Below are positions 37,220-60,048 of a stretch of 64,000 bases of DNA, one piece after another. The notes under the pieces were generated by a model. The model made no database searches. It was not told the DNA's origin and saw nothing but the letters and a program-made list of their open reading frames with translations. The translations under genes were made by a program, and so were the position numbers. Position 1 is the first letter of the stretch; the number at the start of each line of letters is the position of its first letter. Source of the DNA: a virus; the IMG/VR virus record IMGVR_UViG_3300020608_000013, positions 148,021-212,020 of that record, one strand, 5' to 3'.

Positions 37220-37906
37220 TTACATAATATCTAGAACAGAGCCTTTAAAGAGTTCGGTGTTTAACACCTCACCTCCACTAACGTGGAGGTAGCCCAACTT
37301 GTCTAACGGTAGGTCTTTTAAATCGACTTTAAACCCCATTCCTGTAACAGAAAGAAAGTCTAAATGTTTATACCCTTTCAATAAACTGAAGTCTGGTTGA
37401 CTATCGACAGTCAGCATTATATTCAGCGCATCGTCTCTTAACCTGAAGATATTGTTGACAACATTACTACTAACGACCTCGATAGGCGCAATAAGTCCAC
37501 ATGACACCCCTCTAAAAGCTTCATCTGGGATGATAGTAGAGCCTTTTATAATCTCTCCAATTTCACGACGCACACGTACCTCAATACCAGCATCAATGCA
37601 AGCTAGTAAAGGTGCTACGTGTTTCTTGGCAGTACTACCTTCATAGTACACCGTCTTTAAGCCTTTAATGGCTGACAAGTCTTGCGTCTTAATACTACAA
37701 TTCTCAATAACAATACAATTTACGCTACCTGTGATTAGTACATCGTACACGAACCCGTCACCTGTGAATACAAGTGTATCAAGGTCTTGTTTAATAGCAA
37801 TTGGGTTTCTAATGGTGGCATTATTAAAAAATAATACATTTACTTTTACAGAAGAAACCATATTCTGACCAACGACTATTTCTTCAAAATATTTCACATT
37901 TTCCAT
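37220..37906 (-). CDS. LRR-like family protein, 228 aa
   Basis: First gene at the left end of the main array. Repeating units such as LDTLVFTGDGFVYD, NCIVIENCSIKTQD, LKTVYYEGS, then HLDFLSVTGMGFKVDLKDLP and KLGYLHVSGGEVLN. Shows the G-I-E-V strand (about 108) that ends the first half in family members. No signal peptide. AAGG before ATG. Confidence 0.65.
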   Translation of the reverse strand: MENVKYFEEIVVGQNMVSSVKVNVLFFNNATIRNPIAIKQDLDTLVFTGDGFVYDVLITGSVNCIVIENCSIKTQDLSAIKGLKTVYYEGSTAKKHVAPLLACIDAGIEVRVRREIGEIIKGSTIIPDEAFRGVSCGLIAPIEVVSSNVVNNIFRLRDDALNIMLTVDSQPDFSLLKGYKHLDFLSVTGMGFKVDLKDLPLDKLGYLHVSGGEVLNTELFKGSVLDIM

Positions 37907-37930
37907 TTCTATTACCTTATATTAAAATTA

Positions 37931-37962
37931 ATAGAAAGGTGGATAACTGACCACCTTTCTAT
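37931..37962 (-). terminator. Terminator hairpin
   Basis: 12-bp stem with an 8-base loop behind the stop at 37985. Its stem sequence (AGAAAGGTGG) resembles that of the hairpin at 37178 (TAAAGGTGG), suggesting copies of one element. Confidence 0.7.
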
Positions 37963-37984
37963 ACTAAACAATTAGACTATACCA

Positions 37985-38509
37985 CTACTTACCTTTTTTA
38001 GCCTTGGTCTTTTTACCCACCGATTGTTTGTGCAATCGTGTTGGAATAAAAGCACCCACTGACTTAAAAGTGTACGTCACTTTATTATGTGTTCTAGGGA
38101 GGTCGAGGTTTGACATAAGGCAATGTTGTATTACTGCTTTTCTAGCTTTAACTAACAATGGCTTCTTCGCTATTGAATGCATGGCGGCTATGTTATCAAC
38201 CTTGATCTCTCTATTAAAGACACCATAGTGTTTCAACTGGTAGTGTCTCCCCTCTACAAACTCCCACCCGAAAAAGGACGTAGTCTTGATATACTCGAAG
38301 AGTTGCTTACTCGTGGCGAATACGGGGACTGAACTCACTGATTTTGCACGTTTGTTCAATTTTTTCACAGACCCTTTCGAGGTCAAGTCTGTCAGTGGTG
38401 ATGGTACATACGTGTCCGCTGGCTTCCATTCAAGCCCTACATCTGCCGAGGTATTTAAAGCAGTTACGATAGTTGCAGTGGCTAAGGTATATAGTATTAC
38501 GTTTTTCAT
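37985..38509 (-). CDS. Exported protein with basic tail, 174 aa
   Basis: Signal peptide: Lys2, hydrophobic 4-18, likely cleavage after Ala22 (TSA-DV). Mature part is alpha/beta with a lysine-rich C-terminus (GKKTKAKKGK). Distant paralogue of the exported protein at 46768: shared plan YIKTTSFFGWEF / LLKATPYCGFET and a K-R-rich end. It would act in the periplasm or at the envelope. Function unknown. AAGGGA ribosome site; flanked by hairpins. Confidence 0.7.
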   Translation of the reverse strand: MKNVILYTLATATIVTALNTSADVGLEWKPADTYVPSPLTDLTSKGSVKKLNKRAKSVSSVPVFATSKQLFEYIKTTSFFGWEFVEGRHYQLKHYGVFNREIKVDNIAAMHSIAKKPLLVKARKAVIQHCLMSNLDLPRTHNKVTYTFKSVGAFIPTRLHKQSVGKKTKAKKGK

Positions 38510-38537
38510 AAAGTTCCCTTTTAAAAGTTTAGTTTAG

Positions 38538-38566
38538 TGTAATGGGTGTGTATTTCACCCATTACA
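38538..38566 (-). terminator. Hairpin
   Basis: 11-bp stem with a 7-base loop, 40 bases behind the stop at 38607. Confidence 0.6.
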
Positions 38567-38606
38567 AATAGACTCATCTTGCAGTAGATGGTCGTCATGA
38601 TACGCA

Positions 38607-39323
38607 CTATCTTGATCGCATAGTACGCACTTTCGTCATCCCAATATGGTTGATGGCGTTTTCAATACCCGTGGGTAGGTTGACAAGAATAATCTCGTCG
38701 ATTTCTAACGGCTCAATTACATCTAGGAGCGTGGTATGTGAGCCACGCCAATCCTTTATGATTAGACGTTTAAGGGTGGGGAAGTCTTCTAGGTTTAATT
38801 CTAATGAACTTCTTCGGCGTAGTTCTAGTGATAATATACATGCGCGGTCGTCACCTAAATTGTCTAATGGTGCGTTACCACTCATGCGCTCGAAAAAACA
38901 ACAGGGTTCTTCTTCATAAACAACCACACCTTTCACCTTTAGTCTTTTCAGTACTTCCTTATCGTTACATGATAAGGGTTCTTCAAGCCTGTAGTAAGAG
39001 ACTGTCTTCAACGGCAATTCTTCTAGGGAATCGAAATTGTATAGAATACAACCTTCAAAATGGAGGTGTTGTACCTTAGTACCCCATAACCGTCTCAACT
39101 CGACTTCCACGCCTTTAAACTCAAGGTGTGTTACACCTCTCAAATCTACGCCATTCAAGTCGTGGGGTAGGTCTAGAATACGATGGGCAGGATGCGTACC
39201 CATGTCAACCGTAGTCCCATAATATGTATATCCTTCACCATAAGATGTTATTTGAGTCACGCTATCGCCTGTTGCGATAGGTGAGTTTTTTAAATTGCCG
39301 TTTATGTTAATCACATTTGCCAT
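38607..39323 (-). CDS. LRR-like family protein, 238 aa
   Basis: Beta-rich N-terminus (1-35), then repeat units LRGVTHLEFKGVEVELRRLW and VQHLHFEGCILYNFDSLEEL, the mid-protein end strand LKVKGVVVYEE (about 126), and a second half with FPTLKRLIIKDWRGS. Acidic-basic balanced, cytosolic. Three bases from the next gene upstream; GAGGA. Confidence 0.65.
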   Translation of the reverse strand: MANVININGNLKNSPIATGDSVTQITSYGEGYTYYGTTVDMGTHPAHRILDLPHDLNGVDLRGVTHLEFKGVEVELRRLWGTKVQHLHFEGCILYNFDSLEELPLKTVSYYRLEEPLSCNDKEVLKRLKVKGVVVYEEEPCCFFERMSGNAPLDNLGDDRACILSLELRRRSSLELNLEDFPTLKRLIIKDWRGSHTTLLDVIEPLEIDEIILVNLPTGIENAINHIGMTKVRTMRSR

Positions 39324-39326
39324 TTT

Positions 39327-40061
39327 TTAGTCCTCAATCACTTCTAAGACCACACCTTTACTAGCAAGACGTTTAATCTCTGTTGGTAATGGTACACTTT
39401 GACCTTTAAGTGTAAGATGTCTCAACGTTGTTAGGTTATGTAATAATTCAGGGTGTGGTATATTCCCTTGAATTGTTAAGTGAAATACCTTTGTCTTGGC
39501 GATTTCGTTAATCAAGAAAGGCCAGCCTCCTTCGTAATCGTTGATTACGACCTCTTCCAGGTTTTTATGACGTAGTAAAATCGACCGAACGCCAATGCCA
39601 GGACCTTTCTTTATAATAAACTTCGTTACAAAGCGATCCTCATCATCGCCTAAACCTGTCTTGGGTGAGAAGAACTCTACCCACACACCTCTCTCACGTA
39701 ACGTTGGGATTACGTCATCAATGCGACCGTCAAAGACGACCGAATTAGAGACAATGCCAACAAACCCTAATTTCTTTAGATCGCAAAGTTTGTCAATACT
39801 ACGGATCGTTGCGTTCTCTAGCAGTAATTCAGCTACACTACTATCGTTACATAAGTGACGTAAGTCAAAAGTGTCGTTTCGCAAATGTAATGATCGTACA
39901 TATCGGTCATTTACTTTTTTGAGCACGCTATCATTACCGATAGTGGTTGCTTTACTCAGTAGCTCAACTCTGTCAAGCTTGTTGTTTAAAACTGGGTTTA
40001 ATACCTCCTGTATCTGTACTTTATTATAAAGTTCAACGTTATTGGAATCGATAGTTAACAT
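39327..40061 (-). CDS. LRR-like family protein, 244 aa
   Basis: Units include VRSLHLRNDTFDLRHLCNDS, VAELLLENATIRSIDKLCDL, the mid end strand LRERGVWVEFFSPK (about 125), LEEVVINDYEG and LRHLTLKGQSVPLPTE, then LASKGVVLEV at the very end. One of the clearest repeat patterns. GAGG site; promoter copy 7 is 63 bases upstream. Confidence 0.7.
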   Translation of the reverse strand: MLTIDSNNVELYNKVQIQEVLNPVLNNKLDRVELLSKATTIGNDSVLKKVNDRYVRSLHLRNDTFDLRHLCNDSSVAELLLENATIRSIDKLCDLKKLGFVGIVSNSVVFDGRIDDVIPTLRERGVWVEFFSPKTGLGDDEDRFVTKFIIKKGPGIGVRSILLRHKNLEEVVINDYEGGWPFLINEIAKTKVFHLTIQGNIPHPELLHNLTTLRHLTLKGQSVPLPTEIKRLASKGVVLEVIED

Positions 40062-40123
40062 TGTAGTTGCCTCATATAGTGAGTTAAAATAGATTATTAG
40101 TGACTAGTTTTTCTAGTCACTAA

Positions 40124-40132
40124 TATAATATA
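40124..40132 (-). promoter_or_regulatory. Phage promoter motif with leader stem-loop, copy 7
   Basis: ACAGGTGTATATTATATTAGTG, followed directly by a perfect 12-bp stem (40096-40107 with 40113-40124), which places a GTGACTAG-type hairpin at the RNA 5' end. The same GTGACTAG hairpin sequence recurs at copies 11 and 13. Confidence 0.75.
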
Positions 40133-40157
40133 CACCTGTAAAAAACTACATTACCAG

Positions 40158-41078
40158 TCATGTAGCAGCTACTTCTACGTCTATTTCGCGCTTTCGTAAC
40201 TTCTTCACCGCAGCGCTATTCTTACTATAAGCATCCTTATCTAGTACTAAGGTGTTCAGTCTAGGGAGCTGTGCCAACACATCTAGCTTAAAGTGACGGG
40301 TACGAATGACCTCTAGTCGCCTCAAAGTGGCGGGTAACTTAATACAGTAGACACTTTTAGCAGAATCGATTACTGCTAAATTTTCTAGATTAGTAAAGCG
40401 TTCAAATTTAAGTGGTGTGTCCGTACAGGACACATCTTTAACAGTGAGGTTAATAATATCTTTCTCATGTCGGTACAACCCACTTATGTAGGCACGGCGC
40501 AACGCCTCTAGTATCTCTACGCTAGGTTTATGTTTACCTTTAGTAGAAGGGGCGTATGTATTATACACTTTAGATACGCGATGTTGTCGCCCAGTAGGGG
40601 TGATCACACACGTACCGTCTTGATAGATAGTGTTATAGTTTACACTAAGTGCAGACTTATAGTCGTGCATATAATACTTTGCAATACGATGGTTGCGAGG
40701 TACTGTTTGTTCAAAAGACGCGTCTTCGTAAACCTCAACGCCATTGCTCTCAAGCTCTTTTAAATCATTGGGGTTAATAACACACTTTGTAAAATAAACA
40801 CGCTTTAACCTTTTAAACCGTTTAAGTAAATTACAACTCGGCTCTAATTTAATGTTATTAAAATGGATTACATTAATACCTAACCCTTGAATAGGAAGAC
40901 TATTTAATGATAAAAAGGGGTTAGTGTTTACCCCATTACACTTAACCACACAACCCTCGATGACGAGCCGATTATACCCTTTTAAATTAATATTTTTTAA
41001 AGTAGGTATACATGTAGTTAAGTTTACTTTCTTTATAAGCTTTGATTCTCGATGTGTTAACGAAATTGCTTTTTCCAT
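40158..41078 (-). CDS. LRR-like family protein, 306 aa
   Basis: The open frame extends to 41135, but those 19 extra codons run through the upstream gene's terminator. ATG 41078 (MEKAISLTHRESK) is the sensible start though its ribosome site is weak. Repeat units: LKNINLKGYNRLVIEGCVVK, VIHFNNIKLEPS, LKRVYFTKCVINPNDLKEL, then ESNGVEVYEDA, then LENLAVIDS and TLRRLEVIRTRHF. Basic middle (AKYYMHDYKS to RVSKVYN). Confidence 0.65.
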   Translation of the reverse strand: MEKAISLTHRESKLIKKVNLTTCIPTLKNINLKGYNRLVIEGCVVKCNGVNTNPFLSLNSLPIQGLGINVIHFNNIKLEPSCNLLKRFKRLKRVYFTKCVINPNDLKELESNGVEVYEDASFEQTVPRNHRIAKYYMHDYKSALSVNYNTIYQDGTCVITPTGRQHRVSKVYNTYAPSTKGKHKPSVEILEALRRAYISGLYRHEKDIINLTVKDVSCTDTPLKFERFTNLENLAVIDSAKSVYCIKLPATLRRLEVIRTRHFKLDVLAQLPRLNTLVLDKDAYSKNSAAVKKLRKREIDVEVAAT

Positions 41079-41113
41079 AATTCTAACTTTATTTTTAATA
41101 AAAAAAAATATTA

Positions 41114-41143
41114 AGTAGCTGAGACGACTAAACATCCCAGCTA
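41114..41143 (-). terminator. Terminator hairpin
   Basis: 7-bp outer stem with further inner pairs, followed leftward by ATTTTTTTT. It ends the gene at 41156. Confidence 0.7.
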
Positions 41144-41155
41144 CATTTTTAAGCC

Positions 41156-41968
41156 CTATAGTGCGGTGTTATTCACCACCTCTACATCTTGCGGAAATCT
41201 TACTTTAGGGGGTTTTACAACACTATTCTCTATCTCAATATACTTTAAAGAGCTGGGTGCATCATTGAGATCGACAACGATATTATTGTCTGTCAATGTC
41301 AGAGAGGTTAAGTTTTTAAACACAGATAAGTTAAAAGGTGTGTTCCATCCTTTAACCCCCGCGATTGTTAAAGCTTTAACTAAATGGCCGACTTCCTCAA
41401 ACCCATCGTTAAAACAAAGACCTGTCATCTCATTAACGTGTTCAACCGCTTCTAAGAGAGGAATATCCTTCCCTTCTATAATAGCGGTATCAAGAGTAGT
41501 ACCGTACAGGCATAGCACTCCATTAGTATGGAGTGTATGGATGTGTTCGGATATACAACTGGCGAAGCGAATATTAAATCTCCCATTTACATCTAAGTAG
41601 TGTTGGTGTAAGTCTCTCATCATACGTTCATGATGAATATTAACCTCACATCCCCTTACGAAGGCTTCGATGACTACAGTAGGGAACATTACCCCACTAA
41701 CCACTAGTGTTTTAAGGGAGGTTAGACCCTTCAACCATAATCGAACTTCCTCATATATTAAATGTTGCTCATGTAAATACACGGTCTCAATAGAGTCACA
41801 TTTAATCATTCGGAATATGTGTCCGAAATTCAACTCCATCGGGACGACGATGGCAACCGTTTTAATACCCGTGAGATCAATATCCCCAGGTTCTTTTGGA
41901 AGTTGTGTAATAGTGATGGCGGTAGTGTCGTTCTCTTTTTTAAATATCGGTGTGCGTAGTATGAACAT
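41156..41968 (-). CDS. LRR-like protein with CLNxGYE module, 270 aa
   Basis: Sister of the gene at 42056 (shared TPIFKxEN start; GWNTPFNLSVFKNLTSLTLT against CWNTPFSLRPFVNLTSLTLI), so a recent tandem duplicate. CFNDGFE signature at 185-191, preceded by LHTNGVLCLYG (about 146), then the final repeats SLKYIEIENSVVK. AAGGA ribosome site. Confidence 0.7.
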   Translation of the reverse strand: MFILRTPIFKKENDTTAITITQLPKEPGDIDLTGIKTVAIVVPMELNFGHIFRMIKCDSIETVYLHEQHLIYEEVRLWLKGLTSLKTLVVSGVMFPTVVIEAFVRGCEVNIHHERMMRDLHQHYLDVNGRFNIRFASCISEHIHTLHTNGVLCLYGTTLDTAIIEGKDIPLLEAVEHVNEMTGLCFNDGFEEVGHLVKALTIAGVKGWNTPFNLSVFKNLTSLTLTDNNIVVDLNDAPSSLKYIEIENSVVKPPKVRFPQDVEVVNNTAL

Positions 41969-42055: not shown

Positions 42056-42883
42056 CTACCACACAATAGGTGGAATTTCTAAGACGTTATCTAATAGTCC
42101 TTCTCTTGGGTGCGTTATTGGGGAACGCTCTACCTCCAAATATCGTAAGCTAGGCGGTATATCATTAATTTCAATTTCTACTTCGTTGCCTATTAAGGTT
42201 AACGAAGTTAGATTAACGAACGGTCTTAAACTAAACGGTGTATTCCAGCACCGAACCCCCACAATGCTTAACCCTAGTACTAAAGGGGCAATTGCCTCGT
42301 ACTTGTCGTTGAGACACACTCCCTCATTAGCGTAAATGAAATGGTGTAGGTTTGTTAGAGATACTCCACTACTTCTCACGACAGCGGTGTCGTTTGTGAC
42401 CCCGCTTAACTCAAACGTACCTGTACGGTAGATTGCAGTCAGATCGTTGCTAACACAACTACCGAATAATGCATCTACACCCACCCCATCTTTTGGGTGT
42501 TTAACCCGTACGAAATGGTTGTGGTAATCAACCGTTTCTCTCGCATAGTGTACGTCCACTCCTTTACTTGTTAACGCACCCACAATACCCCTTTCTAAGC
42601 TACTATTGTCGTGTAATATGAGGGTTTTAAGCACAGGGAGTTTACCTAACCATGTTGAGAGGTTAGTTCGTGTGTTATACTTGCGTATAGTAATCAACTC
42701 TATAGACTGGCAATCATCAACAGGGAAACTTATCAAGTAGTCTATCGGCTCATCAATGTCAATGAAGACGTTACGCACGCCTTTTAGTTCCACGCTCCCA
42801 GGGTACGCTGGGGGCTTTTTCAGAGCTACTGTTGGGAATTTGTTTTCATTTTTGAATATTGGTGTAAATACGTGATGCATCAT
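42056..42883 (-). CDS. LRR-like protein with CLNxGYE module, 275 aa
   Basis: Sister of 41156. CLNDKYE signature near 190; mid end strand LTSKGVDVHYARE (about 103); YRTGTFELSG (about 150) is the family's 'G-x-hydrophobic' strand before the module. Two ATGs in a row after AGGA; either gives the same product minus one residue. Promoter copy 8 is 89 bases upstream, with a second hairpin (42915-42939) in the leader. Confidence 0.7.
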   Translation of the reverse strand: MMHHVFTPIFKNENKFPTVALKKPPAYPGSVELKGVRNVFIDIDEPIDYLISFPVDDCQSIELITIRKYNTRTNLSTWLGKLPVLKTLILHDNSSLERGIVGALTSKGVDVHYARETVDYHNHFVRVKHPKDGVGVDALFGSCVSNDLTAIYRTGTFELSGVTNDTAVVRSSGVSLTNLHHFIYANEGVCLNDKYEAIAPLVLGLSIVGVRCWNTPFSLRPFVNLTSLTLIGNEVEIEINDIPPSLRYLEVERSPITHPREGLLDNVLEIPPIVW

Positions 42884-43175: not shown

Positions 43176-43913
43176 TTATTCACGTTCTACATTATCGATT
43201 GTAAGCTTGATTTGACAGTTAGTTCTCAAAATCTCTTTCAAAAGCTTTAGTGTCAAACGATTGTCAGTCGGGTTAATTAGGACGATCTCTTCAAGACTAT
43301 CCATGTTAGTGAGGTGTTCAACATCCGTAATGTGAGTTTCCTCAACAATCAGTCTTTCGAGGTTTGGCGGTAGATGCTTCATTGATAACGAGGTATCGCA
43401 GCCCATAATACGCATGTCAACTGCTCGTTTGAACAGCGTCCAATCAGGTTCTACACTAAACCACGAGACACCCGAGACTTCAATTACTAGGACATCGCTA
43501 GCATACTGCTCATACCCCTGGTTATGACAGACGTTATGGAGCATTGGTAATACCTTTTCCAGCTCCTCGTATTTGATTCCCTTGATGTTCAGGTAAGTTT
43601 CCTTATTGTAGTTCTTAAAGACCATTGTACCTTCACCATAAAGTTCGTCGAGGTTACACATGAAGGGTGTTTGTACTTCTAGTGAGTCCCCTTCATTGTT
43701 TTCATACGCGACTTGGTAGCGCTCTTGTTCGTTCGGGAGGAGGGTTGTCACGCCCCGATCTTCAAGTACGGTTAAGTTTTCACTACATAGTTTAACACCG
43801 CCTTTATTGACGTACACTTTTTCCAACGATTGGAACATTTCTAAATCCAGTTCGTTGAAGGTTTCTCCATCTACAAAGAGAACTTCTACTTTAGAGACGT
43901 TAGTGTTAGCCAA
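43176..43913 (-). CDS. LRR-like protein with CHNQGYE module; true start probably ATA at 43952
   Basis: 245 aa if begun at TTG 43913, which has no ribosome site. Thirteen codons further up, an AGGA at the usual distance precedes ATA GAC ATT ATT; the gene at 47357 begins ATG GAC ATT ATT, and the extra residues (ITLAVND) align with STLAVGE of the paralogue at 44093. So the start codon appears changed from ATG to ATA: either a rare AUA start or an inactivated gene. Contains CHNQGYE, LYGEGTMVFKNY, mid end strand LEDRGVTTLLP and a final NLERLIVEETHITDVEHL. Sister of 44093. Confidence 0.6.
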   Translation of the reverse strand: MANTNVSKVEVLFVDGETFNELDLEMFQSLEKVYVNKGGVKLCSENLTVLEDRGVTTLLPNEQERYQVAYENNEGDSLEVQTPFMCNLDELYGEGTMVFKNYNKETYLNIKGIKYEELEKVLPMLHNVCHNQGYEQYASDVLVIEVSGVSWFSVEPDWTLFKRAVDMRIMGCDTSLSMKHLPPNLERLIVEETHITDVEHLTNMDSLEEIVLINPTDNRLTLKLLKEILRTNCQIKLTIDNVERE

Positions 43914-44092: not shown

Positions 44093-44914
44093 TCAGTTAC
44101 AGCTACCCGTAAAGGTAACTCTCAACTTAGTCTCGCGACCACTCACCCCCTCCAGAAGGGTTATTATATCCAATTTATCGTAATTTGTATCGAAAACAAC
44201 TTCTTCTAGACACGACATGTCTAGAAGGGCTGAAATGTTTATCAACGTTGTGTTTACGACACTAATACGCTTTAGATTTTTCGGAAGTGTCGTGCAATCG
44301 ATGATAAACTCATTATCGATTAAAGATAAATCGTTTGCACGATCAAACAAAGTCCAGTCAATATCACTAGTAAAAGCACTGACCCCTTCAACACGAATTG
44401 AAATCACATCAGGGGCATATTTTTCATACCCTTGATTGTGACATACGCCATTTTGATCTTTCAGTAATGGTGAGAGTTCGTTTGGCGCGATGCCTTCGAC
44501 ACACATTCGTGTTTTGTTCGGGTTATGACCAGTTAACCACATTTCCCCTTCCGCAAAGAGAGAGGCTGTATTTTGAAGGTAGCTTTTCTGAACACTAAAG
44601 TATCCTCCCTCAGGACCTTCATATACTAGTTCATAAAAATCGCTTTCGTTAGATAGCAATATTTTAACACCCCGGTCTCGAAGCTCCTGGACCATCTCTG
44701 TATCCAATACATGACCATTTTGGTCAATATAGATGCGCTTCAAGGCTTTATAGAAGTAGAGATGTAATTCGTTGAAGGTTAGTCCTGATGTAAACAGTAC
44801 CTCTACGCTATCGACGGTTTCGTTTGTTGTGATACAACTCTCGCCTACAGCAAGCGTAGACGTGTTAGTAAAATCCACTTGTGTTAAATCGTTTGAATAG
44901 CGTAATTTAGACAT
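44093..44914 (-). CDS. LRR-like protein with CHNQGYE module, 273 aa
   Basis: Good reference member: VEVLFTSGLTFNELHLYFYK (38-57), LKRIYID (58-64), LRDRGVKILL (78-87), LFAEGEMWLTG (119-129), CHNQGYEKYAPDV (158-170), then TLPKNLKRISVVNTTLINIS and LEEVVFDTN. Sister of the gene at 43176. AGGAG before ATG. Confidence 0.75.
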   Translation of the reverse strand: MSKLRYSNDLTQVDFTNTSTLAVGESCITTNETVDSVEVLFTSGLTFNELHLYFYKALKRIYIDQNGHVLDTEMVQELRDRGVKILLSNESDFYELVYEGPEGGYFSVQKSYLQNTASLFAEGEMWLTGHNPNKTRMCVEGIAPNELSPLLKDQNGVCHNQGYEKYAPDVISIRVEGVSAFTSDIDWTLFDRANDLSLIDNEFIIDCTTLPKNLKRISVVNTTLINISALLDMSCLEEVVFDTNYDKLDIITLLEGVSGRETKLRVTFTGSCN

Positions 44915-44981: not shown

Positions 44982-45782
44982 TTATCGGTCTAGCTCGAAG
45001 ATTAGATCGAACATTTCGCCCTTCACTTCGTTGCAAATTTTATTGAAAAGCCGAAAATCTTCTCCAATAACCTTAAGTGTTGATAGGTTTGGGTGGTGTG
45101 CTAGCGCACCAATATTTGTTAGTACTGAGGTGTTTACAGTCAGGGTTGAAAGACTGGCGGGCAGTGTCCCGCAATCTACAGGATATGAGGTTTTAAACAA
45201 CACTAACTCTCTAACCTTGGTGAAACGAGCGAAATCCAGTGATTCCATAAAGCGATTCACGCTATCTAGTTCCAGATATTGTACATCACCTGCAATTTTT
45301 TCATATCCTACATTAAGACATAGACCTGAATGAAAATGCAATACTTCTGCACGCATATTTTCTTCTAATAAATGTTCTCCTAGTCCCTCTAGTACAAGCG
45401 CTTGATCGTCAAATAAATCGCTCTCAAGAACGGGAGTGAAATTACCTACTTCAAAAACCTTACCGTTTGGGAGGTAGACTTCCGTGGTCTCTGAGATTAA
45501 GTTACGTAAACCTCCTTTCCAGATAACCTCAACGCCTCGGCGTTGAAGGGCATTTAGATGATCACCAGGCTCTTGCACACGCCCGACATAGATGCGTTTA
45601 AGATTTGGGAAGCCCTCGACGCATTTTAGTAACTCACCATTTACTAAACCGTCTGTAAAAACGGTTTCAACTGAATCGAAGTTAGGTTTAATGAACATAT
45701 TCTCCTTAACTCCCATAAGACCCATAGTGATGTTTTGGACATTAGTGTTACCGTCGAAAGATTTTAAGCTGTAAGTTTTCAT
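44982..45782 (-). CDS. LRR-like protein with CLNVGYE module, 266 aa
   Basis: VETVFTDGLVNGELLKCVEG, LKRIYVG, LQRRGVEVIWKGG (about 79-91), LFDDQALVLEG, CLNVGYEKIAGDV (155-167), then TLPASLSTLTVNTSVLTNIG. Begins MKTY like its neighbour at 45864, a likely duplicate pair. Promoter-like copy 11 is 60 bases upstream. Confidence 0.75.
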   Translation of the reverse strand: MKTYSLKSFDGNTNVQNITMGLMGVKENMFIKPNFDSVETVFTDGLVNGELLKCVEGFPNLKRIYVGRVQEPGDHLNALQRRGVEVIWKGGLRNLISETTEVYLPNGKVFEVGNFTPVLESDLFDDQALVLEGLGEHLLEENMRAEVLHFHSGLCLNVGYEKIAGDVQYLELDSVNRFMESLDFARFTKVRELVLFKTSYPVDCGTLPASLSTLTVNTSVLTNIGALAHHPNLSTLKVIGEDFRLFNKICNEVKGEMFDLIFELDR

Positions 45783-49195: not shown

Positions 49196-49206
49196 AGTCA
49201 TTTCTC

Positions 49207-50908: not shown

Positions 50909-50971
50909 TTCGCACTCCTTCATAATTAACATGCCTCACTCACTATAATAAAAAAGATGGTTTAAAAAAAC

Positions 50972-51011: not shown

Positions 51012-51941
51012 TCAACCTACATCAATAAGGACGGCAATATCTTGACTTTCAGCGTAGTCTAAAAGAACAACATGACTTTCTTTGGTTAAATTTTTCTCCT
51101 TTACAAAAATCCGTTTCGTTACGTCTAACGCTTCTAAGCCACTCAAATCGTCAATAGGGTCGTATAACGTAAGTACATCAACTGTTAAACCAGCAAACAC
51201 TTCGAGACCCGTCTCTTTTGGTAGTGTACCTAGTCTCAAATCAACTAGTGATTTAAGTTTTTTAACTTCTTCTATATTAACAATCTCTTTACTCGAACAT
51301 AGTGAGATAAGCTCGACAAATCTTAATTCACTTAACCCTTTTAAATCAATGCGCTCAACACCATTAGTATCTAAAAGCCCAACATAGAAGCTATCTGTAC
51401 CGACGACATCATAGACGGTTGCACGGTGTTTAGTATACTTACTATGTACATACCGTCGTTCTTTGACACGCTTACAATAACGTTTTACAAAGGAGCGATT
51501 TTCCTTACGAAAAGTGCTATAATGATCTATAAAAAGATTAACCCCTAACTCATACAACTTTTCAAGAAGTGGGAGAGATAAACTAGTGAAATCAAAATCA
51601 ATATAAATATTTCTTAACCCATTTATTTCTAAGAGAGCTTCTTCATTAACCACCCCACCGTTTGAAAAGGTGAAGGTATTAACTTCTTTACTCTTAAATT
51701 TGTTTAAATCGACCACTACGTTTTTACTGGTGTTAATAACATTATTAATACTTTTAACTTTCGCAAACCCTTCACCCATGTTAGGGTGACTATGCTTAAC
51801 ATAAAAACTTCTTACTGTATGAGCGTTACGGCAACCAACACTGTTGTCAGCGTAATCAATAATTCCTTTCTCAATATTAGCTTTACTAAATGCAGCGTTG
51901 AATAACAAATTAATCGCATTATCTTTAATAATTTCAAACAT
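51012..51941 (-). CDS. LRR-like family protein, 309 aa
   Basis: Helical first 40 residues, then VNTFTFSNGGVVNEEALLEI, LRNIYIDFDFTS, LYELGVNLFID (about 131), a basic linker (KRYCKRVKERRYVHSKYTKH), then LVDLRLGTLPKETGLEVFAG and LTLYDPIDDLSGLEALDV. Module signature absent. AGGAG ribosome site. Confidence 0.65.
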   Translation of the reverse strand: MFEIIKDNAINLLFNAAFSKANIEKGIIDYADNSVGCRNAHTVRSFYVKHSHPNMGEGFAKVKSINNVINTSKNVVVDLNKFKSKEVNTFTFSNGGVVNEEALLEINGLRNIYIDFDFTSLSLPLLEKLYELGVNLFIDHYSTFRKENRSFVKRYCKRVKERRYVHSKYTKHRATVYDVVGTDSFYVGLLDTNGVERIDLKGLSELRFVELISLCSSKEIVNIEEVKKLKSLVDLRLGTLPKETGLEVFAGLTVDVLTLYDPIDDLSGLEALDVTKRIFVKEKNLTKESHVVLLDYAESQDIAVLIDVG

Positions 51942-52006: not shown

Positions 52007-52918
52007 CTAACGTTCTAGGTATAGTGTGATACTACGATCGCGACAATATTCTTCGATACGTATCATGACACTACCGTCGGTTTTTTGTGCTTCACTACTG
52101 AGCGCAATATACTTAGTAATCTTAAGTCTCGATAAAGACTCAATGTCTTTAGGTAATTCATACATTACCAACCCAGCTACCTCTAAACCCGCTAAACTTG
52201 CCAGCTTAAAGGTTGATGGTAATGTATTGAAAATTACTTGCACAATACTCTTAGATTTTACAAGACATTCTACGTTCATATAGTCTACTTGATTACTAAA
52301 GTAGATACTTTGCAGAAACGGTAGCTTCTCAATACCTTTAAAATCTAGTACTTTATGTGATCTACATACTGTTTCAAGGAAACGGTTTGTCACACACTCA
52401 CTGGTTAAGGTGTGGGCTACGTTACCTACATTCTTACCAGGACTACGCGTGAATTGATAATCGACATTCTTATCACTCACCATTTCTTCGTCTTCTATGA
52501 TAACAGTAACACCTTTAGCGTGTAGCTCATTTAGTATTGATGGCTCAATACCGCTCGACATTCTGCCTACATAGACACACTCTAGACCTTTGATCTCCGT
52601 CAGCACCTCATCGTCAATGACATTGCACTCGCAGAAGCAAATCGTAGTCACCTCCACACCCTTTAGGAACTCGATTGAGAAATCTTTGTCTAGGGTTCGT
52701 AGTATATCGATTGTTAGTAAGTTGATATAGGATAAACCTTCAGGGGCGCGTCTACCTTTTGGTTTTGTAAGATGTATATCTACATCATAAATACGACCTG
52801 TTAGCGGAAGGCCATCTGTATCAAAATAAGCAGGGGATGTGTAATCACCCTCTACTTTTAGTAACATGGGTACCTTGGTAAACCAGGGGCTTGTTAAATA
52901 CTCAATATTTAATTCCAT
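52007..52918 (-). CDS. LRR-like family protein, 303 aa
   Basis: VTTICFCECNVIDDEVLTEI, LECVYVGRMSSG, LHAKGVTVIIEDE (about 138), FLQSIYFSNQVDYMNVECL, TFKLASLAGLEVAGLVMYEL. Close in plan to 51012 (same order and a similar final 'LAGLEVAGL' unit), so a neighbouring pair. AAGGAG. Confidence 0.65.
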   Translation of the reverse strand: MELNIEYLTSPWFTKVPMLLKVEGDYTSPAYFDTDGLPLTGRIYDVDIHLTKPKGRRAPEGLSYINLLTIDILRTLDKDFSIEFLKGVEVTTICFCECNVIDDEVLTEIKGLECVYVGRMSSGIEPSILNELHAKGVTVIIEDEEMVSDKNVDYQFTRSPGKNVGNVAHTLTSECVTNRFLETVCRSHKVLDFKGIEKLPFLQSIYFSNQVDYMNVECLVKSKSIVQVIFNTLPSTFKLASLAGLEVAGLVMYELPKDIESLSRLKITKYIALSSEAQKTDGSVMIRIEEYCRDRSITLYLER

Positions 52919-52931: not shown

Positions 52932-53789
52932 TTACGCTCGTAATAATTTCTGATCTTTAACGACCAGTTCTGTCAAATTGTGTATTTTCCCAATATCGGG
53001 AAAACCGACAACATACCCACCATAAACATGCAGACGCTGAATACTGAAACCTTCCAACAAACTGAGGTCTAATGTTGTTTTCAAATCGATTAAATGTAAC
53101 TCACCGATAGTTATCAACTCTAGCGCTAGTAATTCCTTGCGCTTATAGAGGCTACAATTTTTAATCGTTAAGGACTGAATGTGTTCTTCATTCATTAACT
53201 TTACCAGCGATAAATGGTCTACATCTTTAACAATATAGCTACCATCTTTTACCTTATTCGCATTATCAATATAGTGCGGCTTAACATGCCTATCGCAACG
53301 AATTGTTTCGTGAAATATATCGGGTAGGTCTTTGTAATGTACCTGATGCATTGGGCTATATTGATCGAGATCACTCATAGCGCAAGGGACGATAGATACG
53401 TTTTTACGTATCAAACTATCGTAGCAGTCTCGTTTAACATCACGACCATCCTTTTCAAGTACACAACCTTTCAATAAAATAGCTTCACTGATATTAAGGT
53501 GTGCGAACCTACTGGTTGGTACAATAGTGGTGTCAGATATATCCAGTATACCGATCTTAATGCCCGTGAATGGGCAATCATCAAGGACTAACTGAGTTGC
53601 TATTTTCATACGATCTACAATAGCTGGTCTCCCGTCACCGAAATCGATATATGCTAAATCTACCGTAAAGCAAGGCATCTCTATACCTGCACCACTAAAA
53701 CTTTCCAGCGGTCGACGATCTCTCAAATACGTCATTAATTGCATTAAGGTCGCAGTGTTTAAGTTGTAAGTTACTTTTACTAAATCCAT
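52932..53789 (-). CDS. LRR-like family protein, 285 aa
   Basis: TQLVLDDCPFTGIKIGILDI, FAHLNISEAILLKGCVLEKD, IRKNVSIVPCAMS (mid end strand variant), IQSLTIKNCSLYKRKELLAL, IGELHLIDLKTTLDLSLLEG, IQRLHVYGGYVVGFP. Has His/Tyr-rich centre (MHQVHYKDLPDIFHE). AGGAG before ATG. Confidence 0.65.
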   Translation of the reverse strand: MDLVKVTYNLNTATLMQLMTYLRDRRPLESFSGAGIEMPCFTVDLAYIDFGDGRPAIVDRMKIATQLVLDDCPFTGIKIGILDISDTTIVPTSRFAHLNISEAILLKGCVLEKDGRDVKRDCYDSLIRKNVSIVPCAMSDLDQYSPMHQVHYKDLPDIFHETIRCDRHVKPHYIDNANKVKDGSYIVKDVDHLSLVKLMNEEHIQSLTIKNCSLYKRKELLALELITIGELHLIDLKTTLDLSLLEGFSIQRLHVYGGYVVGFPDIGKIHNLTELVVKDQKLLRA

Positions 53790-53807: not shown

Positions 53808-54173
53808 TCATTTATTAGAATTGTTGAACACTAGTAAGCGCTCGATATTAAAAAAACGATGTAACGATTCACCGTTTATAAATTCACAATTATCGAACAC
53901 AATATCCTTAGCGATACCTGTAGGTAACTGTGAAACATCCACCGTACATCGATAAAACCGTAGTTGGCGAATCGCGCACTTCTTTAAATGATGAAACTCT
54001 TCATAGTTCGGAAGCGTGTGCTTAAACACTAGCGTGCGGCTAGCTGCCGTTACCTCAACCCCTTCTAGTGTCATGCCGACACTATTATAGAAGATTAAGA
54101 ATTGAATTTTCTCATAACTTCTTTCCCTCCACGACACGTACTCATTAGTTTTAAACGTTAGAACCTTCCCCAT
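53808..54173 (-). CDS. Short LRR-like protein, 121 aa
   Basis: Half-size member: units IQFLIFYNSVGMTLEGVEV, SRTLVFKHTLPNYEEFHH, IRQLRFYRCTVDVSQLP, KDIVFDNCEFINGESLHRFF, IERLLVFNN. No second half. Coupled to the 392-aa gene by TAATG overlap with AAGGAGG, so the two may form one functional unit split across two frames. Confidence 0.65.
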   Translation of the reverse strand: MGKVLTFKTNEYVSWRERSYEKIQFLIFYNSVGMTLEGVEVTAASRTLVFKHTLPNYEEFHHLKKCAIRQLRFYRCTVDVSQLPTGIAKDIVFDNCEFINGESLHRFFNIERLLVFNNSNK

Positions 54174-55351
54174 TACTTATCCTCCTTTTCCACAGTTACA
54201 ATCGTAGGTACATTTTTCACGTTGATAGCAACCACTCCACCAACTTTTAAAGTGTGGGTGTTACCAGAACCTCTAAACGTAACGTTGTTTAACATTAACA
54301 CGCGTTTCTCCAAACTTTTAGAAAGTAGCGTTTCAATAGGCACTTCAACGTTAGAATAGAGTAAATACGACATACCGTTATTAGTAGTTCCTTCGACACC
54401 CATAATAGAACTATACTCGTCTACACCCTCAAGTCCGTAAAGGGCAACAATGAAACAGAATTGCATCCAACTATCATGGGTTTCTACGTTGTTTAGGACG
54501 ATCTCACTGAACTTTCTCTTCTTCAGCACCTCCCTTATAGAAAAGGGTGCTAGTACACATCGATTCAATGTCAAGCTTGCTACATTACACCAGTTTTCAA
54601 GGACTATAGGTTCAAGAATGTCTTCCAGAGTAACTTCCACATTATCGAGATTATGGGTGTTAAATAATTGCTGTGCGTTCTTAATAGTAACTCGCTCTAC
54701 TTCAGGGAAGTATGTTAACCCGTACATACAGATTATTTTGCTAAAATCCACCGTTACGTCTTTAGGTGGGATACCATTATAATCTAAAGTCTTCACAAGG
54801 TGAGAGGCTATTGAACTAACACCCTCTCTAAGTTTTGATTTGTAGGCGTAATATTCACCAAATCTAGTTCCCGTTGTGAGGACATCCTCTCCGCTCAAAT
54901 AGTCGTTGTATTGTATGAGGTAGGTGTAGTGGTCGCTTTCTAACGACTCCATAGGTGAGAACGGGAAGCGCGGTTTCTTCCGAATAAAGTCGTTAACACT
55001 ACCGTAATAGATAGTAACAGGAGGTCTCTCTACATTTAGTAATTTACGGACATCTGTTAACTCCACCATCTTACTTGTAATGAACACTTTCTTGACGTTA
55101 TTGAACGTCAAGAATTGTAAGTTTGTGACTTCGGTGTCATAGAAATCAACCACATCTATATCGACACTAGGGCTAATTTGACTTACATCAAACGGCTTTT
55201 CCAACCCTCTCATGAGAAGGTACTTAATTTTCACTCCCTTTCCTTTATCAAGACGACTGTTGACTAAAGAACCTCGTTTGAAAGCTACTACATCGTATGT
55301 AGTATTGTCTTTAATTTCGTCGATTACTTGGACAGGTCTATTCTCTTTCAT
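54173..55351 (-). CDS. Longest LRR-like protein, 392 aa
   Basis: IKYLLMRGLEKPFDVSQISP, VDVVDFYDTEVTNLQFL, VKKVFITSKMVE, then a middle region without repeats (about 120-200), VERVTIKNAQQLFNTHNLDN, ASLTLNRCVLAPFSIREVLK, FSEIVLNNVETHDSW, and RVLMLNNVTFRGSGNTHT. About one third longer than the family norm. Starts after AGGAG three bases behind the previous stop. Confidence 0.65.
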   Translation of the reverse strand: MKENRPVQVIDEIKDNTTYDVVAFKRGSLVNSRLDKGKGVKIKYLLMRGLEKPFDVSQISPSVDIDVVDFYDTEVTNLQFLTFNNVKKVFITSKMVELTDVRKLLNVERPPVTIYYGSVNDFIRKKPRFPFSPMESLESDHYTYLIQYNDYLSGEDVLTTGTRFGEYYAYKSKLREGVSSIASHLVKTLDYNGIPPKDVTVDFSKIICMYGLTYFPEVERVTIKNAQQLFNTHNLDNVEVTLEDILEPIVLENWCNVASLTLNRCVLAPFSIREVLKKRKFSEIVLNNVETHDSWMQFCFIVALYGLEGVDEYSSIMGVEGTTNNGMSYLLYSNVEVPIETLLSKSLEKRVLMLNNVTFRGSGNTHTLKVGGVVAINVKNVPTIVTVEKEDK

Positions 55352-55354: not shown

Positions 55355-56260
55355 CTACACTCCTGTATATAAATCACTGCTTGTTAAATTTGGTTCATAA
55401 TAATCTACACTCCATCTTAACTCATTCTCAAGACCTGAGTTATTAGTATCGCGGTTAACGATACTATCAAGATAGTCTGCCAAATCATCAAAATTCTCAT
55501 CATCTCTAAAAATAATAACGCCTTGACCGTTAAGTCTATTTAAGAATTTTCGATGTTTGTTAAAATACGACAACTCCACATCGACTTGATGTAGATGGGG
55601 TAGTGTGAGTAACGCTTCCTCGCTTTTTAATGACGCGTTGCTTAAATAAAGGTATTCGACACTTGGTCCTATATACGAACAATCAAACGGCGCTGGATTA
55701 TCGCAAATTGCGAGCATTTGTAGATTAGGAAGCCTACTAATAAAACTAACCTCAGTCATATCAGTTTCCCATAACCATAGGGTCGAAATAGCTTCTAATA
55801 TAATGTGATCATTATCAATGCCATATAGCGAATGGGCAAAAACCGATTCTTCTAACCAGAAATCTTCGTTACTCAACGCGTCTATCACGCTACCGCGTAG
55901 CGCCTTTGGGTACTTAAACACATACTGAGCGATACCAATAACATCACAGTGTGTTCTTATAGTATCAGGCACTTCCCCATCTTTATGAACAATTAGGCGT
56001 TTTAAATCTGGGGCGACCTTTGGTAGTGCGTCTATATTACGCCAAGTGGCGTTACTTATATTCAATACCCGCACACCCGTCAAGTCAAGTTTTTCTAAAT
56101 CGATGAAATTCTCATAACACACTGTTAGTATGCTAACAGTGTCTATGCCAACAGCGTCAATCCAACCGATGTCGTCATTATCCTCAATAATAAATTCAAC
56201 ATTATTTTTACGGGCTTTGTTTTTCAAAAAACGAGCATTAACTCTATCTACTTTGTACAT
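55355..56260 (-). CDS. LRR-like family protein, 301 aa
   Basis: VSILTVCYENFIDLEKLDLT, VRVLNISNATWRNIDALPKV, LKRLIVHKDGE, LEAISTLWLWETDMTEVSFI, NLQMLAICDNPAPFDCSYIG, VEYLYLSNASLKSEEALLTL, LNGQGVIIFRDDE (about 259). The textbook-like second half is the best single argument for an LRR fold. Weak ribosome site; promoter copy 10 is 51 bases upstream. Confidence 0.7.
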   Translation of the reverse strand: MYKVDRVNARFLKNKARKNNVEFIIEDNDDIGWIDAVGIDTVSILTVCYENFIDLEKLDLTGVRVLNISNATWRNIDALPKVAPDLKRLIVHKDGEVPDTIRTHCDVIGIAQYVFKYPKALRGSVIDALSNEDFWLEESVFAHSLYGIDNDHIILEAISTLWLWETDMTEVSFISRLPNLQMLAICDNPAPFDCSYIGPSVEYLYLSNASLKSEEALLTLPHLHQVDVELSYFNKHRKFLNRLNGQGVIIFRDDENFDDLADYLDSIVNRDTNNSGLENELRWSVDYYEPNLTSSDLYTGV

Positions 56261-56441: not shown

Positions 56442-56455
56442 AATTAAATCCCATT

Positions 56456-57283
56456 TTAAACTACCTTGATTTCAACATTTTGATCCATTAATTGTTTTAC
56501 TAGAGTGTTCTGATTTTCTAGTAAACTATAATTAACCCTTAATACTTTAAGTTTAGGTAAATTCTCTATTTTTGATAGATTAATCACATTAACATTAATA
56601 AGTATCAAATGTTTTATACTCCGAGGAATGAATTTTAAATCGATTACTCCTATATTGTTTTCAATATGTAGTGCTTCCAGATTGTTAAATCTACAAACCT
56701 CTAGCATATCTAAAGTATGGGGTTTAACAACCACCAATTTTACAACATCTTGTTTTATCAATCTAGTGAAATGAAAATCAGGCGCAATTTGTTGCTTATA
56801 GAAATAGATGCTTTCATCGCCACACTTTGTCTTCTTCACGGTATCGAAGATGTGTAAGACACCTGTTCCATAGAACGTCTCAAGCTGGGTTTGGTGGTTG
56901 TTAAAATAAATATCACCATTAACCCGTTCCTCAGTCCCTAAAGGGGAGGCATCTCGTATATTATGTACGCGGATTCCTAAAAGTTCGTCACGTTCTTTAA
57001 TCAACCCTGAACGTAATGTTAAATTAGTGTAGATGCTCCGCAGTTTTGGGAATTTGTCGCGCAACACTGGTATGTCTGTCGGTCGTGTATCGTTTAAATA
57101 CAACACCTCTAACGCTGCCGAAGATGATAGCATTTTTAGACACACTACTCTATTTGTTGAACGTATTGAGAGAAACCGTATTGTACTAAGATCGAGCCAT
57201 TCGACATCGTACTGGCCCTTTATAGTGATCGCTATCCCTGTCATCTCGTTAAAGTACTCTTTACGTGAATATAAATCAAACAT
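56456..57283 (-). CDS. LRR-like family protein, 275 aa
   Basis: IRFLSIRSTNRVVCLKMLSS, LEVLYLNDTRPTDIPVL, LRSIYTNL, LLGIRVHNIRDA (mid end strand), FYGTGVLHIFD (about 140), LEALHIENNIGVIDLKFIPR, IKHLILINVNVINLSKIENL, LKVLRVNYSLLENQ and a last strand VEIKVV. Carries the hydrophobic strand before the module but not CLNxGYE. AAGGG before ATG. Confidence 0.7.
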   Translation of the reverse strand: MFDLYSRKEYFNEMTGIAITIKGQYDVEWLDLSTIRFLSIRSTNRVVCLKMLSSSAALEVLYLNDTRPTDIPVLRDKFPKLRSIYTNLTLRSGLIKERDELLGIRVHNIRDASPLGTEERVNGDIYFNNHQTQLETFYGTGVLHIFDTVKKTKCGDESIYFYKQQIAPDFHFTRLIKQDVVKLVVVKPHTLDMLEVCRFNNLEALHIENNIGVIDLKFIPRSIKHLILINVNVINLSKIENLPKLKVLRVNYSLLENQNTLVKQLMDQNVEIKVV

Positions 57284-57316
57284 TTTCTACATACCCTTTT
57301 AAATAAAAAATAAACA

Positions 57317-57347
57317 GTACTTATGAGCCACGATAGCTCATAAGTAT
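57317..57347 (-). terminator. Terminator hairpin
   Basis: 12-bp stem (one G-T) with a 7-base loop; A/T tract 57301-57314 supplies leftward T residues. Behind the stop at 57372. Confidence 0.75.
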
Positions 57348-57371
57348 ACACTCTTCTTACACCATTACGTT

Positions 57372-57806
57372 TTAACGCCAACGTTCCCCACTACTGTCGA
57401 AGACATCAATGTCCCGACTATGTAGTTTATCAAATAAAGCGTAATGTTGCTCTAATGCTTTATTTGGCACTTGGACACTTTTTAAGCTTTTCATCGCTTT
57501 AAGCGCCGAGTAGTTTTTAACTACACCAACATCATCTTTAATAATAACTACTTCACAGTTTGGCGGTAGCCCATTTAAGCACTCGAAGACAGGTGAATTG
57601 CTTATATAGATATAAGCAACCTTAGTAAAGTTTAGCAATGTTTTATGTGCGGTGAAGCGCGAAACATTATGGATGGTTAAGCCGTAAAGAAGGTCTATAA
57701 GCTTGTTAAGTCCCTCTGTATTACAGGTAGAGGGTGTGGTACTTAAACTTTCTCCTCTAAGCGTTAAGTACCCTCTCGTGCATAGTTCACCATAGTTATA
57801 ACTCAT
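57372..57806 (-). CDS. N-terminally short LRR-like protein, 144 aa
   Basis: Corresponds to the second half of the family only: it opens with LCTRGYLTLRGESL (like LYGEGTMVFKNY), then the terminal units VAYIYISNSPVFECLNGLPP, CEVVIIKDDVGVV, LKSVQVPN, and LHSRDIDVFD. Coupled to the helical gene at 57803 by ATGA overlap, a second case of the two families sharing a transcript. A truncated paralogue that remains open. Confidence 0.65.
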   Translation of the reverse strand: MSYNYGELCTRGYLTLRGESLSTTPSTCNTEGLNKLIDLLYGLTIHNVSRFTAHKTLLNFTKVAYIYISNSPVFECLNGLPPNCEVVIIKDDVGVVKNYSALKAMKSLKSVQVPNKALEQHYALFDKLHSRDIDVFDSSGERWR

Positions 57807-58441
57807 ACACTACCCCCAAACTCCATACCGCTTTCGGACACAAGTTTAATAAGCACAATTTGCTCTTTCATAAACTCTGTACCAATGACCTCCATTTCAT
57901 GCGGCGATGTCCCTCGGAGGTAGTGGTCTACGAAGCGCTTATTGCAAGCCATTATACTTTCTGATGGTGGACTACTAAGTAAATGTTTTGTAATAAGTCG
58001 GTGGGTAATAGTATACCCAGCCATATGTCTCAGCAAGTCTCGTATACTGGCTAGGTGCGTAGTCTCTAGGTTGTTCGCTACATGTTTAGCAATTTCACCC
58101 AAGTAGAACCTTGTAGCCATATCTTTGAAATGACTTGGTTCGTATTCCACAACAGAGAACCCATTAACAAATCTCTCTAGTTTATATGCCAACATAGGAT
58201 CAGTGGGGAGGTATTCTAATTTCTCCTCAAGCGGAATACGATTTTTGTTAGATATTACGACACCCTTACTTTTCAGTAGGTGTTTCGCTTTAGCGGTATC
58301 GTAAAGAACCATTAAGTCTACAAAACGCTCACGAGAGCTTTGTAGCATGTGTGCTCCCTGATAAATGTGCATCAAACGAACACATTCTTTTGTGTAAACT
58401 AACGAAGTATCGGTATCGAATAACATGTCTTTAATACTCAT
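57803..58441 (-). CDS. Helical-family protein, 212 aa
   Basis: Resembles the 11-31 kb helical proteins: two motif instances, SPPSESIMACNKRFVDHYLR (about 158) and GTSPHEMEVIGTEFMKEQIV (about 178), separated by 20 residues. Coupled on both sides by ATGA overlaps. Function unknown. Confidence 0.65.
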   Translation of the reverse strand: MSIKDMLFDTDTSLVYTKECVRLMHIYQGAHMLQSSRERFVDLMVLYDTAKAKHLLKSKGVVISNKNRIPLEEKLEYLPTDPMLAYKLERFVNGFSVVEYEPSHFKDMATRFYLGEIAKHVANNLETTHLASIRDLLRHMAGYTITHRLITKHLLSSPPSESIMACNKRFVDHYLRGTSPHEMEVIGTEFMKEQIVLIKLVSESGMEFGGSV

Positions 58442-58635
58442 ACTACATCACCCATAACGAAAACTTTATCAAAAATGTGATTTACTCGATCCCAAACGAG
58501 CGGTTTTAGGGGTCTTTTGGGGTCAATTGTTAGAAACAACGTGTTACCCGTCTGTTTTAACAGTTTCGATTCTAGTACAGTTTCCACTGCGTCACTGCGT
58601 AAACGCCACTGCGATTTCTTATTTTTTAATACCAT
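58438..58635 (-). CDS. Small hypothetical protein, 65 aa
   Basis: ATG 58635 (MVLKNKKSQWRLR) after GGAGG; the frame is open to a TTG at 58647. Basic N-terminal half, then short beta strands (NTLFLTIDP, HIFDKVFVMGDVV). Function unknown. Confidence 0.65.
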   Translation of the reverse strand: MVLKNKKSQWRLRSDAVETVLESKLLKQTGNTLFLTIDPKRPLKPLVWDRVNHIFDKVFVMGDVV

Positions 58636-58637
58636 AA

Positions 58638-59144
58638 TTACCTCCAATTTAAAATAACTTCATCAATTAAAAGTTTGATTTTTAGATACGTTTGTTTTTG
58701 TTCAGTAAACAACTTATCATGGCGTTGATCTACAGACTTTACCTTTGCCATCAGGTTAGTCGCTTTGTTGAAGATAACACCTTCTTGTGCTCTTGCCGCT
58801 GGACAATTTTTGACTTCAATCAACTTCCTTAGTTTTTTAAGCTGGTTGATTAGATTGTCTACTTGTTTTGACACTTTTTTTAGAGTGTGAAAAACTTTCA
58901 CACGCTCGTCTACAATGCCATTGTAGCGATGGACTTCGCCCTCCAATGTGTCAAGACGATCTAGACGTTCTATCATACACTGACGCAGTTTGTCATTGAG
59001 TTGTAAACTCGCATCTGCGTTTACCGTACGTCGCCTTTCCAACAACTTGCGTATATTACGTGTGTAGTAATCCCTACGACGTATTGTCGTAGAGCGAAGT
59101 ATGTGTAGCGCATCCATTGCTTGTTCAAGTACTATACTTTCCAT
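58638..59144 (-). CDS. Coiled-coil protein, 168 aa
   Basis: ATG 59144 (MESIVLEQAMDALH) chosen; the longer frame to 59213 would start inside the LRR-like gene. Almost wholly charged helix, heptads in about 70-125 (VFHTLKKVSKQVDNLINQLK). General likeness to the two genes at 60305 and 60999. Confidence 0.65.
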   Translation of the reverse strand: MESIVLEQAMDALHILRSTTIRRRDYYTRNIRKLLERRRTVNADASLQLNDKLRQCMIERLDRLDTLEGEVHRYNGIVDERVKVFHTLKKVSKQVDNLINQLKKLRKLIEVKNCPAARAQEGVIFNKATNLMAKVKSVDQRHDKLFTEQKQTYLKIKLLIDEVILNWR

Positions 59145-59163
59145 TTTCCAATCCAAAGGTAAA

Positions 59164-60048
59164 TTACCGATACCATAAAAAATCACCACCGACACGTCTG
59201 GCAAAGACCTCAATACCCTTCGCTTTAAGGTCAGATAGCGTCTCTAAAAAAGTTCCATCCATAGTAGTCACATCATCGACAATGACCCTTTTCAGAACTT
59301 TACTGTATAACAACGCTTCATGGTTTATAACGGTCGCTGAAGTGATAACAAGTCGCGATACGTTTGTTATATATGGTCTGGATAAATCATACACCTTCGC
59401 ACCAAAACCAATCGTTGTAGAATGCAGCTTTAAATCATGTAAGTGTGATTCGTTCAACATCCTATCAACCCCTGTTAGAAATAAGTGTCGAAAATCATGT
59501 ATCTTCTTCACGTTTGTGAAGTCACAATAGCGACGTTTCGTGAACAACGCATCATATTTCAAATGTTTATCCGTGACATCGGCCAATACACTTGTTAACC
59601 GCCCTTGATCTAAAGACCACCCGCCATCAACCTTATCACGATCTTGTATATCGAGGATAAGTGGGTGGTCGCCTATCAATGGGTGTGTGTATTCTTCAAA
59701 GGGTTTTGACACTTTTACCCTGTTTTCAATACAATACTCTACTAGAGTATCTAGCTCGCTAATAGAGGTTATCCTGGGGTGTATTATAGACACTGCTTCT
59801 AATGAGGGGTTGTGGAGTAGTTCTACGCCCTTTTTTAGGTTGAAGCAGGGTGAATCCCTAATATAAAGATACCTTATCTTTTTACCTACCAGGAATGTAA
59901 GGTCGATCGGTGTATTGTTACCGATAAACCTTAATGTTTTGAATTTAATAGGCAGGTGATACAACTCTCTGGGAGTGTAGAATATCCCCTTATCAATCCT
60001 AGCTTCCGCAATATCCCAATCATGGGGTATTGAGTAATTTGTCATCAT
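59164..60048 (-). CDS. LRR-like family protein, 294 aa (right-most copy)
   Basis: FKTLRFIGNNTPIDLTFLVG, IRYLYIRDSPCFNLKKGVEL, LEAVSIIHPRITSISELDTL, VKKIHDFRHLFLTGVDRML, VSRLVITSATVINHEALLYS, LKRVIVDDVTTMDGTFLETL, and LKAKGIEVFARR at the end. Coupled (ATGA) to the 82-aa gene. It sits apart from the array, among coiled-coil genes. Confidence 0.65.
   Translation of the reverse strand: MMTNYSIPHDWDIAEARIDKGIFYTPRELYHLPIKFKTLRFIGNNTPIDLTFLVGKKIRYLYIRDSPCFNLKKGVELLHNPSLEAVSIIHPRITSISELDTLVEYCIENRVKVSKPFEEYTHPLIGDHPLILDIQDRDKVDGGWSLDQGRLTSVLADVTDKHLKYDALFTKRRYCDFTNVKKIHDFRHLFLTGVDRMLNESHLHDLKLHSTTIGFGAKVYDLSRPYITNVSRLVITSATVINHEALLYSKVLKRVIVDDVTTMDGTFLETLSDLKAKGIEVFARRVGGDFLWYR

Follow-up and report, generated by a model that had tools for sequence, protein, structure and literature searches.

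Multicopy families of repeat proteins are a known trait of large viruses of eukaryotes, for example insect poxviruses and giant viruses. Among phages, leucine-rich-repeat (LRR) effectors of the GogB type are single genes of temperate phages and not an array in a large phage. The LRR-like genes described here, which lie in a phiKZ-like jumbo phage, compare with these and other systems as follows: (i) like the entomopoxvirus LRR and giant-virus LRR/FNIP-repeat families, they are multicopy LRR-type genes of a large DNA virus, and those families are the top viral neighbours of a modelled product (44093, below), but they belong to viruses that infect eukaryotes and the likeness is structural only, without demonstrated common descent; (ii) they share a predicted LRR fold and sequence-level profile matches with bacterial LRR proteins (Leptospira LIC proteins, YopM, and internalins), whereas the bacterial proteins have regular repeats and are mostly secreted or at the surface, and in those of the phage the repeats form two short, irregular blocks around an insert and no secretion signal was recognised; and (iii) they resemble GogB-type effectors in being LRR proteins encoded by a phage. 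With a probability of roughly 0.45, hence tentatively, we infer that they form a lineage-specific tandem family of cytoplasmic, non-catalytic modules that diverged to bind different host proteins.

The genes are carried by the virus record IMGVR_UViG_3300020608_000013 (212,020 bp; hereafter the contig), whose terminal 64 kb constitute the window, the stretch of 64,000 nucleotides that was analysed. Genes are named by their first position in the window. The carrier is recognisable as a phiKZ-like jumbo phage by its major head protein, terminase, and virion RNA polymerase beta subunit, among other genes. Like the Chimalliviridae, it has most of a reference core set, made up of the 51 genes that phages fMGyn-Pae01, FLC8, and PCH45 share: 45 are present, mostly collinear, and three more are represented by diverged syntenic relatives. 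The record is therefore probably near complete; no end repeats were reported. Unlike the Chimalliviridae compared, the phage has no recognisable shell gene, lies on a very long branch, and is the only one among those tested with the LRR array. The tree of the RNA polymerase beta subunit places it close to the group's base, a placement that comes with long-branch warnings and is compatible with an early split as well as with loss. A class II (B12-dependent) ribonucleotide reductase is encoded at L007:328-2577, and the small subunit of the class I enzyme, which the compared relatives carry, was not recognised in the contig.

The original prediction of a run of about 23 LRR-like paralogues between 37,220 and 60,048 was borne out. 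This interval contains 27 genes, all on the minus strand, with open reading frames at the positions listed below; 23 are LRR-like (the exceptions are 37985, 46768, 57803, and 58638), and 21 of these are linked by sequence. The coding sequence of the family makes up 9.8% of the 212-kb contig. Scores in bits refer, unless another profile is named, to a family profile built from nine core members (core-9), on which the 1,350 control sequences, shuffled or reversed, scored at most 6.7 bits. The members and their neighbours are as follows.

27462-28262, minus strand: outlying LRR family member, 266 aa (16.0 bits; LRR_4 E 0.0018, below cut-off)
37220-37906, minus strand: LRR family member, 228 aa (16.0 bits)
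37985-38509, minus strand: non-LRR small basic protein with a signal-peptide-like N-terminus (hydrophobic in sequence)
38607-39323, minus strand: LRR family member, 238 aa (10.6 bits; BLAST to 50153)
39327-40061, minus strand: LRR family member, 244 aa (9.9 bits)
40158-41135, minus strand: LRR family member, 325 aa as called, inner Met start possible (65.3 bits)
41156-41968, minus strand: core LRR member, 270 aa, sister of 42056 (BLAST)
42056-42883, minus strand: core LRR member, 275 aa (BLAST to 41156)
43176-43913, minus strand: core LRR member, 245 aa, TTG start, sister of 44093 (BLAST)
44093-44914, minus strand: core LRR member, 273 aa (AlphaFold2 model, mainly LRR neighbours)
44982-45782, minus strand: core LRR member, 266 aa, sister of 45864 (BLAST)
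45864-46676, minus strand: core LRR member, 270 aa (BLAST to 44982)
46768-47301, minus strand: non-LRR small basic protein with a signal-peptide-like N-terminus (hydrophobic in sequence)
47357-48259, minus strand: core LRR member, 300 aa (BLAST, profile)
48302-49201, minus strand: core LRR member, 299 aa (BLAST, profile)
49207-50067, minus strand: core LRR member, 286 aa (BLAST, profile)
50153-50932, minus strand: LRR family member, 259 aa (BLAST to 38607; recruited by the iterated profile)
51012-51941, minus strand: LRR family member, 309 aa, sister of 52007 (BLAST; low-confidence AlphaFold2 model)
52007-52918, minus strand: LRR family member, 303 aa (13.3 bits)
52932-53789, minus strand: LRR-like gene, 285 aa, without profile link (repeats by eye; iterated-profile E 0.01 at best)
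53808-54173, minus strand: short LRR-like gene, 121 aa, without profile link (repeats by eye)
54173-55351, minus strand: LRR family member, 392 aa, weak link (8.7 bits; not recruited by the iterated search)
55355-56260, minus strand: LRR family member, 301 aa (Pfam LRR_4 36.1 bits, E 7e-9, curated cut-off 27)
56456-57283, minus strand: LRR family member, 275 aa (34.4 bits; LRR_4 E 0.0019, below cut-off)
57372-57806, minus strand: short LRR family member, 144 aa, C-terminal block only (36.7 bits)
57803-58441, minus strand: non-LRR gene (no family match)
58638-59213, minus strand: non-LRR gene (without family link)
59164-60048, minus strand: LRR family member, 294 aa (14.9 bits)
Contig 130,004-130,615 and 130,639-131,343, outside the window: two LRR copies (core-9 profile for one; iterated profile and LRR_4 for the other)

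The products of 37985-38509 and 46768-47301 have lysine-rich ends. BLAST also detected further paralogue sets in the window, namely 60305-60979 with 60999-61574, 14409/15765, 16886/18947, and 21619/22600/23640.

Within the window, none of the 45 core genes found lies past 10.5 kb, and the LRR array is located in an accessory region without conserved core genes. This location bears on the reading that the LRR paralogues are virion or internal-head proteins, packaged or on the surface, comparable with the paralogous virion sets of phiKZ-like phages. A structural-type gene (7782) and the last three of the paralogue sets named above occur in the same window and favour this reading, but the lack of core genes around the array and the failure of any tested member to match a structural PHROG make it improbable.

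The central block of the array is directly linked in an all-versus-all BLAST comparison (43176/44093, E 2e-51; 41156/42056, 3e-44; 44982/45864, 4e-29). The core-9 profile scored 12 further proteins above every control, comprising 10 array genes, 27462, and one gene outside the window; the lowest of these array scores is the marginal 54173. BLAST links add 51012 (via 52007, E 2e-13) and 50153 (via 38607, E 3e-5). A profile search had been proposed as a check that the members form one family, and together with the BLAST links it upheld this for 21 of the 23 LRR-like array genes and for the predicted 24th copy at 27462, which scored well above the control maximum, while 52932 and 53808 received no link from the profile search and are LRR-like by eye only. 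Common ancestry of most array members is thus supported at the sequence level. The two motifs described earlier were also confirmed: 11 of 26 family members contain Lxx[RK]G[VI]x[VIF], versus 5 of 184 other genes (0.1 expected from shuffles), and 12 of 26 contain a strict form of PxxLxxLxV, versus 3 of 184. With a crude regular expression for LRRs, the family stood apart from the other genes only modestly.

An LRR-type fold, as originally proposed, gained support from several sides. Searched against the PDB, the family profile retrieved LRR chains by sequence (best, Leptospira LIC11098, E 7e-9), together with designed LRRs, YopM, and internalins. Pfam LRR_4 exceeded its curated cut-off in two members, 55355 and the copy at contig 130,004 (28.1 bits), and matched several others under the cut-off; in a search of the whole-genome DNA, all 8 LRR_4 matches, each sub-cut-off, fell on family members. 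The AlphaFold2 model of the 44093 product (pLDDT 86.8, pTM 0.83) has mostly LRR neighbours in the PDB and viral libraries searched with Foldseek; the best PDB match is weak (E 0.018) and global TM-scores are low. Among viral models, giant-virus and entomopoxvirus LRR families lead (best E 2e-4), again with low TM-scores; a short, irregular solenoid interrupted by an insert could account for such values. Structure prediction of two products gave a divided answer: 44093 yielded a confident model, whereas for 51012, with two sequences as input, confidence was low; the latter model again has regularly spaced strands in two blocks, and its fold neighbours are mixed, LRR proteins standing alongside dehydrogenases. 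Taken together, the profile matches and the 44093 model support a predicted LRR solenoid for the family.

The same matches raise the question of whether the LRR members are effectors against a eukaryote housing the bacterium, as GogB is in Salmonella. The nearest viral folds belong to viruses infecting eukaryotes, the profile matches YopM and internalins, and LRR effectors borne by phages exist (PMC3386239). However, LRR matches reflect fold class and not kinship, a simple scan of N-termini found no signal-peptide-like or hydrophobic N-terminus in any LRR member, and no lysogeny genes were noticed in the phage; we regard an effector role as very improbable.

The claim of tandem expansion with strong divergence also held. 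The four clearest sister pairs are neighbours (41156/42056, 43176/44093, 44982/45864, and 51012/52007), and similarity correlates with array position (Mantel rho 0.15, p 0.02). Because the closest pairs are adjacent, the array likely arose by tandem duplication. Within the sister pairs, pN is 0.45-0.54 and pS 0.76-0.80; the synonymous sites are saturated and dN/dS is not estimable, so the duplications are old. The values give no evidence of recent expansion or of positive selection, and the dN/dS check proposed for pairs such as 41156/42056 lends the suggested arms race no support. Neutral accretion, in which tandem duplicates drift without a common function, would accord with the high divergence and with positive selection that is not measurable. 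It is opposed by the purifying constraint implied by these pN and pS values, since open frames and core positions were kept at saturated synonymous divergence, and we give such drift very little credence. Codon usage of the LRR genes correlates with that of the other phage genes at 0.99, which makes them unlike a recent foreign import.

The family was matched in none of 88 other related records, with this genome as the positive control; the 88 include fragments and near-duplicates, and the search could overlook strongly diverged relatives. LRR_4 was found in none of 49 related records, and no close relatives of single LRR proteins were found in viral, phage, and bacterial collections. Within partial literature coverage, no report of an LRR array in a tailed phage was found. 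These searches support a lineage-specific family that, as judged by sequence, is absent from the tested relatives.

Of the 17 gaps in the array that measure 40 bp or more, 14 contain a hairpin of 10-16 bp, several of them behind a TATATTATA-type motif. The contig has 21 copies of TATATTATA on its minus strand versus 2 on the plus strand, and 18 of the 21 are intergenic and upstream of a gene; it is probably a phage promoter element. The gap and hairpin before many LRR genes suggest separate transcription units; the hairpins could just as well terminate transcription of the gene before. Since hairpins are common genome-wide (45 of 79 gaps elsewhere), such regulation would not be array-specific.

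The nuclear shell protein ChmA was not recognised in the contig by phrog_4795 or by a custom profile, of which the former misses ChmA in SPN3US and the latter reaches only E 5e-4 there; ChmA was detected in 56 of 56 other relatives. Syntenic, highly diverged relatives of phiKZ gp067, PicA (gp069), and gp070 are present. The gene at the PicA position (contig 81,116-82,483) has weak similarity (HMM E 0.0018; hhalign E 1.4e-4, probability 53); PicA corresponds to phiKZ gp69 and PhiPA3 gp63 (PMC11087766), and the PhiPA3 gene map was also used. PhuZ was not found in the contig, and it is missing from one nucleus-forming clade (PMC11724907). Loss of the phage nucleus, considered when ChmA, PhuZ, PicA, gp067, and gp070 first seemed missing, is not claimed because of the diverged PicA, gp067, and gp070 relatives, the weakness of the ChmA profiles on SPN3US, and the PhuZ-less nucleus-forming clade. 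A 400-aa gene (contig 90,403-91,605; L006:12403-13605) occupies the syntenic ChmA position. Within the interval in which relatives carry ChmA lies a 2.3-kb stretch, contig 93,941-96,274 (L006:15941-18274), that is longer than any other in the genome lacking genes of at least 90 aa; it has no tRNA or Rfam match and no ChmA remnant, and its folding energy is close to shuffled values.

The diverged compartment genes and the unrecognised shell mean that the compartment of this phiKZ-like phage may be unusual, which lends some weight to the reading that the LRR members are scaffolds or adaptors sorting phage proteins for the phage's own replication compartment. Sorting, however, would favour a few conserved adaptors and not two dozen diverged ones, and the absence of ChmA is not secure; this reading is distinctly improbable.

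We return to host-binding modules as the preferred reading. No catalytic domain was recognised in the LRR products. Each protein would be a non-catalytic binding module in which two short LRR blocks are split by a variable insert; the diverged copies would have different host protein partners, so that during infection defence proteins could be blocked or host machinery redirected. In the C-terminal strands, buried inward positions are conserved and outward-pointing positions look more variable, which fits diversified binding surfaces and equally plain relaxed constraint on exposed residues. A stronger version is a poxvirus-like arsenal: every member would have its own host protein to neutralise or redirect, and together the members would form a combinatorial counter-defence repertoire in a phiKZ-like lineage with a strongly altered replication compartment. 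This version is doubtful. A library of defence-system proteins, in which counter-defence is poorly covered, gave no convincing match to the family.

The array offers roughly two dozen candidate host-binding proteins that could be screened for counter-defence or host-takeover functions. An LRR array occupying about one-tenth of a jumbo phage genome suggests that a solution of eukaryotic viruses can arise in bacterial viruses.
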